Part shown: piece by piece, positions 46,967-47,034 of the stretch
Numbering within the stretch: position 1 is the first letter of the stretch
Layout of the letters: every line of letters starts with the position of its first letter
Source of the DNA: Alphaproteobacteria bacterium
Lineage (GTDB): Bacteria > Pseudomonadota > Alphaproteobacteria > Micropepsales > Micropepsaceae
Direction: 5' to 3'
NCBI GenBank assembly: GCA_947474645.1
Contig: CANJJD010000007.1
Location: 1-64,000 of the forward strand
Length of the DNA stretch: 64,000 nt
Program-made: the position numbers and the translations under genes
The notes under the pieces: model-generated
What the model was told of the DNA's origin: nothing
The model's database searches: none
Seen by the model: the letters and a program-made list of their open reading frames with translations, nothing else

Positions 46967-47034
46967 GAATCCGGGGACTCAATTCATAACGCTTTGATTC
47001 ATCTGGACTCTTGACCCGGTGACTCCGCCGAATC
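46967..47034 (+). promoter_or_regulatory. Cluster of six GANTC sites upstream of ccrM
   Basis: GAATC 46967-46971, GACTC 46976-46980, GATTC 46996-47000, GACTC 47006-47010, GACTC 47021-47025 and GAATC 47030-47034 lie in 68 bases; random expectation is about one per 256 bases. GANTC is the target of the CcrM methylase encoded 36 bases downstream. In Caulobacter, GANTC sites in the ccrM leader affect its expression, so autoregulation by methylation is likely. Confidence 0.8.

Follow-up and report, generated by a model that had tools for sequence, protein, structure and literature searches.

Why would the gene for a GANTC adenine methyltransferase be preceded by a dense array of that enzyme's own target sites, and what might read them? 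The question is raised by a 64,000-nucleotide stretch (contig CANJJD010000007.1, positions 1 to 64,000, called the window below) of assembly GCA_947474645.1, a genome of 2.64 Mb (2,638 kb) in 54 contigs from an alphaproteobacterium of the family Micropepsaceae, in which a preliminary description had noticed six GANTC sites packed into 68 bp in front of ccrM. Judging from sequence, we consider it likely that these sites form the control region of a ccrM promoter of the sigma70 type, read through adenine methylation via GcrA. The promoter is conserved, belongs to a kind already known, differs from it in layout, and is probably read by its methylation state. GcrA control of ccrM outside the Caulobacterales has already been predicted (PMC7987155); the geometry and the array expansion described here refine that prediction.

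The GANTC cluster is exceptional in the genome and retained in relatives

All six sites lie where the preliminary description had placed them (Table 1), with start-to-start spacings of 9, 20, 10, 15, and 9 bp. Its estimate of twenty times the random density is correct for uniform base composition; against the actual density of the window the enrichment is about 59-fold, GANTC being scarce there (96 sites in 64 kb, where 100 dinucleotide shuffles average 229; the other scripted motif tests used mononucleotide shuffles). At window density, 68 bp are expected to contain 0.10 GANTC, and a Poisson model gives about 1e-4 expected six-site clusters for the entire window. A larger sample of the genome (464 kb of the 2,638 kb, comprising the window and 20 stretches of 20 kb) contained 628 GANTC, or 1.35 per kb, and the ccrM cluster was the sole place in it with at least five sites per 100 bp; the runner-up was a four-site cluster upstream of a divL-like gene. 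Autoregulation would have been less credible had GANTC been equally dense in many intergenic regions, and no other place in the sample was as dense. The idea that the spacing partly follows a helical turn was borne out within pairs of sites (9 to 11 bp) and not otherwise.

To compare the region in relatives, ccrM was searched for in near and class-level relatives, where 36 of 41 genomes matched at E ≤ 0.001, and in genomes of the family, where 90 of 96 matched; in both searches some genome matches are merely other methylases. Thirty loci were kept per search (partly shared), 40 more were added by place and at least 80 came from the genome collection, and the resulting loci, L001 to L169, yielded 150 distinct ccrM upstreams. 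An alignment set of 47 genus sequences was hand-picked from 59 distinct genus upstreams, the remaining 12 being counted among the others. Among the fetched loci, the closest relative identified to species is Rhizomicrobium electricum (L042; Micropepsaceae, Micropepsales), with a CcrM identity of about 75%. The cluster, whose absence from relatives would have told against autoregulation, is kept: at least five GANTC occur within 160 bp of codon 6 in 43 of the 47 aligned genus sequences. GANTC reaches 6.40 per 160 bp in these upstreams; none of 15 control palindromes exceeds 1.17, and the figure for GANTC in ccrM coding sequence is 0.25. Relatives carry up to nine sites in 160 bp, and some have sites downstream too.

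GANTC sites are built into a conserved core promoter

Overlooked in the preliminary description was the relation of the sites to -35 and -10 elements, along with two further elements discussed below, an NrdR-type box and a DnaA-box-like element. We anchored the upstreams on TTGAC followed by GANTC 19 bp on; three near variants of TTGAC were permitted and none was needed. In the anchored upstreams the second position of the -10 element is A in 129 of 129 and the sixth is T in 127 of 129, and neither position is part of the anchor definition. Sites 5 and 6 fall between, or overlap, the -35 and -10 elements, which is the layout of a sigma70-type promoter read through N6-methyladenine (m6A), with a transcription start predicted from sequence at about 47046. 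The module TTGAC-GANTC-nAnnnT has one further occurrence in a 475-kb sample of the genome, and GACTCTTGAC occurs at four genome places (reversed control, 1), one of which is the ccrM promoter.

Relative to TTGAC, site 4 lies at -5, site 5 at +8 to +10, site 6 at +19, and site 3 at -14 to -16, with sites 1 and 2 near -44 and -35; site 4 and the upstream pair formed by sites 1 and 2 are commonest in the Micropepsaceae. The placement of sites 5 and 6, by contrast, recurs in many alphaproteobacterial families. In a class-wide draw, 101 of 142 genomes had a ccrM match at E ≤ 1e-60, and 73 of the 98 upstreams outside the family were examined. With more -35 variants allowed, the core was present in 32 of these 73, versus 0.2% of 1,460 shuffles. 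We infer an old core promoter, to which this lineage added the extra GANTC sites. An array serving chromosome maintenance as a methylation sink, timer, or mismatch mark, with no part in transcription, might be dense in the same way, since density by itself specifies no reader, but sites 4 and 6 are fixed beside the -35 and -10 elements (-5 and +19 of TTGAC) and not merely dense, and we regard this explanation as the most improbable of those considered.

Table 1. Features of the ccrM control region and adjoining genes in the window
Feature	Positions	Strand	Conservation or support
NrdR-type palindromic box CCACAAGATGTGGTGG, 16 bp, outside rnhB here	46946..46961		matrix rank 1
GANTC site 1, GAATC	46967..46971		site 1 class in 40/47 aligned genus sequences
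GANTC site 2, GACTC	46976..46980		44/47 genus sequences
GANTC site 3, GATTC	46996..47000		45/47 genus; 73/82 other anchored sequences
GANTC site 4, GACTC, adjoins -35	47006..47010		45/47 genus; 25/82 others
Predicted -35 element TTGACC	47011..47016	+	TTGAC with GANTC exactly 19 bp on in 129/150 distinct upstreams
GANTC site 5, GACTC, in -35/-10 spacer	47021..47025		46/47 genus; 78/82 others
GANTC site 6, GAATC, C is first base of -10	47030..47034		anchor-defining, so 129/129 by construction
Predicted -10 element CAGTGT (consensus CANNNT), 17 bp from -35	47034..47039	+	conserved positions 2 and 6
DnaA-box-like element TGTTGATAA (reverse complement TTATCAACA), just past predicted transcription start	47048..47056	-	relaxed motif conservation
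ccrM, GANTC adenine methyltransferase	47071..48147	+	profile matches
rnhB, ribonuclease HII, upstream of ccrM	46268..46933	+	Pfam PF01351 3.6e-45, NCBIfam RNase HII

Activation of ccrM by its own product through GcrA is the favored reading

The downstream gene is the single ccrM match in the genome at E ≤ 0.001; its product scores 642 bits against NCBIfam NF050803, which is under the model's 830-bit cut-off, and carries the Pfam N6_N4_Mtase and RAMA domains (the ATG at 47071 is assumed to be the start). The genome also encodes GcrA (PF07750, 162 bits, C3:74198). GcrA is dimeric (PMC3667746), binds sigma2, brings RNA polymerase to m6A promoters, and accelerates open-complex formation (PMC7403470). 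In Caulobacter, promoters with a GANTC between -35 and -10 form one class of methylation-timed promoters, activated at 40 to 60 min (PMC4287350), and a comparative prediction lists ccrM as a core GcrA target that was lost in the Caulobacterales (PMC7987155). Because of this published work on GcrA/GANTC promoters and the prediction of ccrM as a target, we take positive feedback via GcrA as the most likely reading: the elements are arranged as in GcrA/sigma70 promoters that depend on methylation, so that CcrM is probably an activator of its own gene. Methylation autoregulation with GcrA as the reader, proposed in the preliminary description, is thus well supported as a deduction from the encoded gcrA and from the pair of sites (47021 and 47030) between -35 and -10.

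GcrA would bind methylated sites 5 and 6 and stabilize RNA polymerase on a weak -10 element, so that methylation by CcrM would raise ccrM transcription, a positive feedback. Replication would leave the sites hemimethylated and retune promoter output, and the extra one-turn pairs upstream might recruit more GcrA and steepen the response. Two further inputs may join these, one concerning nucleotide supply, set out below, and one concerning replication initiation, for which the DnaA-box-like element at the transcription start is a candidate. Motif counts thereby become a defined promoter, which raises specific questions: how much each GANTC site contributes, how this depends on its methylation state, and what accounts for the larger number of sites in this lineage.

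Several observations weigh against this reading. The TTGAC/GANTC core is missing from 21 of the 150 upstreams, both Caulobacter vibrioides loci among them, and from 41 of the 73 class-wide upstreams; four genus sequences have only 4, 4, 3, and 2 GANTC within 160 bp; and since the compared sequences are phylogenetically related, the counts are not independent events. In the genus the N of GANTC is also near constant at site 3 (T in 41 of 45), site 4 (C in 45 of 45), and site 6 (A in 44 of 47), and these sites, taken alone, could be other elements. The GANTC letters might then simply come along with a fixed operator bound by some other factor (GACTC repeats, for example), with methylation incidental. 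However, site 5 takes all four bases at N in the genus (C 26, A 8, G 7, T 5) while GA-TC is kept, and slides over three positions, as if the methylation motif were what selection maintains; the control palindromes show no such enrichment, and the downstream gene itself encodes a GANTC methylase. We consider a fixed operator very improbable.

The main rival to positive feedback concerns the sign of the response. Methylation could be an off-switch, the promoter firing while hemimethylated or unmethylated after passage of the fork and being shut by full re-methylation, as in Caulobacter ctrA P1 and ccrM. The published record counts here against activation: ctrA P1 is reported to require hemimethylation (PMC8116508), and Caulobacter ccrM is described as active when hemimethylated and driven by CtrA (PMC2217572); six sites could, moreover, yield a sharp shut-off. 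The two C. vibrioides loci, however, are without the core, and the promoter there is described as CtrA driven (PMC2217572), whereas a CtrA box (TTAA-N7-TTAA, that spacing only) with at most one mismatch was found in 0 of the 47 genus upstreams, the best match in the window having two mismatches. Without a CtrA box in the genus, the CtrA-to-ccrM wiring of Caulobacter is not visible there. Among the 103 other upstreams the box is exact in 2 and within one mismatch in 8, and the C. vibrioides locus L075 has one mismatch. The sites between -35 and -10 also resemble the activated Caulobacter class (PMC4287350), and an off-switch is, in our judgment, unlikely.

A single NrdR-type box may add a nucleotide-pool input

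Upstream of the array stands a 16-bp palindrome like the NrdR boxes of reductase operons, with a consensus nearly that of the nrdJ boxes of the family; nrdR is present in the genome. A matrix was trained on 126 ccrM boxes from other genomes, with the window and L002 excluded. In a scan of 475 kb of the window genome it gave the ccrM box its top score (21.2), followed by a site upstream of nrdJ, the class II ribonucleotide reductase gene (16.9). Of 41 nrdJ upstreams, taken from 41 of the 93 genomes with a match, 39 scored above the 99th shuffle percentile with the same matrix, some of these matches being weak (9 to 10, where the threshold is 8.3 and the highest shuffle reached 13.4) and located away from the main site. 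In the reverse test, a matrix of 38 nrdJ boxes, which the ccrM-trained matrix had picked, found the box in 71 of 79 family upstreams and in 128 of all 150 ccrM upstreams. In the class-wide sample an NrdR-type box scored above threshold in 18 of 73 ccrM upstreams. These matches suggest that ccrM answers to deoxynucleoside triphosphate (dNTP) pools via an NrdR-type box.

The palindrome may instead be no NrdR site at all, reflecting the C-terminal codons of rnhB (such as those for VHNILYQ) or a site for another factor. With the frame set by tblastn, it lies in the rnhB reading frame in 103 of 128 cases, as this explanation would have it, but it persists in the 20 cases, window included, in which it lies at or past the rnhB end, the gene stopping before or within it (the other 5 loci show no rnhB), and its in-frame leucine codon is TTG in 100 of 101 cases versus 16% elsewhere in the same rnhB genes. 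Also against it are the scores that the matrix built from ccrM boxes alone gave in 39 of the 41 nrdJ upstreams and the distance to the -35 element, which tends toward a kept helical phase. Box-to--35 distances group at 37, 48 to 50, and 58 to 62 bp, and in a post hoc test over nine class-level families the phase at 10.5 bp gave R = 0.78 (P = 0.0016 versus uniform distances; P = 0.031 at 10.0 bp and 0.0074 at 11.0 bp).

Against NrdR control, the box at ccrM is single, whereas NrdR is reported to need two boxes in helical phase (PMC12051234; the structure of NrdR on a box pair is given in PMC9110341). At the usual spacings near ccrM the averaged matrix showed no peak at +31/32, and its value at +41 was far under the box score. 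Inspected by eye, two reductase genes of the window genome show pairs with 15 nt between the boxes, one upstream of nrdJ, where the second box is degenerate, and one upstream of the class I gene nrdA. A second contrary point is the site at C1:150175-150190 (L304), which has two mismatches, scores 16.9 like that of nrdJ, and is intergenic, with GACTC sites nearby; it is flanked by a DUF3108 gene and an exported-looking open reading frame (ORF) of 79 amino acids, with no reductase gene adjoining. Not every strong box is therefore at a reductase gene. Weighing these points, we find it rather unlikely that the palindrome is something other than an NrdR site.

An NrdR-type box in apparent helical register with the promoter would thus add a probable dNTP input, and a nucleotide-pool input to ccrM would be new if confirmed: no report linking ccrM to NrdR or dNTP pools was recognized in the literature searched, and the main text of a reconstruction of NrdR regulons in Proteobacteria does not include ccrM (PMC5343134). 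In C. crescentus, deletion of nrdR raised soft-agar spreading, which was read as a dNTP effect (PMC12186491). More broadly, we suggest tentatively, at somewhat less than even chances, that many Alphaproteobacteria outside the Caulobacterales share a composite promoter in which methylation feedback through GcrA is combined with dNTP input via a single NrdR box in helical register, often within the last codons of rnhB. If so, the regulator of ribonucleotide reductase would also adjust methylase levels to the nucleotides available, and with them how fast DNA is re-methylated after the fork has passed; a real NrdR-type box would tie the timing of DNA methylation to dNTP pools and explain the conserved codons at the end of rnhB.

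Some further observations concern the box and its neighborhood. Unlike most relatives, the window and L002 carry it the other way round, which would fit an inversion of the short palindromic stretch flanked by CCCAC and GTGGG (46940-46966 compared with L032). A third box match, at a reductase on C13 (11.4), was discarded because it covers the first codons of the protein (HQIWDM). With up to three mismatches the box 16-mer occurs at 20 genome places, compared with 113 for a reversed control, and such matches are as such meaningless. Rfam searches of L304 and L001 returned no match. The start codon of rnhB was deduced, and domain searches used the stretch from 46283.

A DnaA-box-like element lies near the predicted transcription start

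Among the 47 genus sequences, 36 carry a relaxed DnaA-like motif that starts +36 to +39 from TTGAC (shuffle mean 0.135, maximum 2), the list of relaxed motifs having been chosen after viewing the alignment; 16 of 82 others have one anywhere in the scanned stretch. The strict box TTATNCACA, from which the window's TTATCAACA is one base off, is present in 7 of 47 genus sequences (shuffle mean 0.05) and 3 of 82 others. In Cypionkella aquatica and Aliiroseovarius crassostreae (L048 and L108), a perfect DnaA box, TTATCCACA, lies 8 bp into the TTGAC stretch, at the usual place of site 5.

Comparison with known systems

As in the GcrA/CcrM-dependent sigma70 promoters of Caulobacter (ctrA P1, mipZ, and podJ), GANTC lies between -35 and -10 and both GcrA and CcrM are encoded. 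Here, however, there are two spacer sites, one overlapping the -10 element, with more upstream, and the target is the methylase gene itself. The comparative prediction in PMC7987155, whose species set included Rhizomicrobium palustre, likewise has ccrM as a core GcrA target; by its own words its score ignores the position of a site in the promoter, and its section 11 contains neither the fixed -35/site 5/site 6/-10 layout nor the expanded array, the NrdR-type box, or the DnaA-like element. The remark in the preliminary description that Caulobacter ccrM has GANTC sites in its leader agrees with L075 and L091, the two C. vibrioides loci, where two sites stand roughly 30 bp ahead of the start codon. 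The C. crescentus ccrM promoter resembles the present one in having GANTC near ccrM and differs in being described as CtrA activated, and the searches for the core module and for the NrdR-type box were negative in both C. vibrioides loci. Compared with the NrdR boxes of reductase operons, the box here is single, lies upstream of -35, and belongs to a methylase gene. Control of ccrM by DnaA has been suggested in some alphaproteobacteria without CtrA boxes (PMC2877005), and the element described here is likewise DnaA-box-like, near ccrM, and in a setting where CtrA boxes are missing; it differs in its nearly fixed place just after the -10 element and in that most copies are off the strict box.

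Possibly related control regions elsewhere in the genome

In 17 of 39 nrdJ upstreams, including that of the window genome (L173, G000:C4, 3690-3760), TTGACTC, a GANTC overlapping a -35-like TTGAC, stands 30 to 31 bp before the NrdR-type box, so that nrdJ may likewise be under both methylation and NrdR control. The nrdA upstream (L194, G000:C5) has TTGAC-G-GATTC, again a GANTC beside a -35-like TTGAC, followed by the NrdR-type box pair. Upstream of gcrA (L190, G000:C3) are CTACTGTATCTAGTGA, a palindrome resembling an NrdR box with a matrix score not above 6, together with GATTC and TTATCCGCA. GANTC triplets in L171 and L173 appear by eye to be in coding sequence. The four-site cluster that was runner-up in density occupies positions 1087-1128 of L182 (G000:C14), with a DnaA-box-like ATATCCACA upstream, and precedes a gene (1164-3605) for an 813-amino-acid PAS/histidine kinase with the phospho-acceptor stretch SYELRTPL. 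We take this stretch to be that of DivL, hence our term divL-like, and the preceding ORF is presumably ahcY. The gene divL is named among the GcrA targets in PMC7987155.
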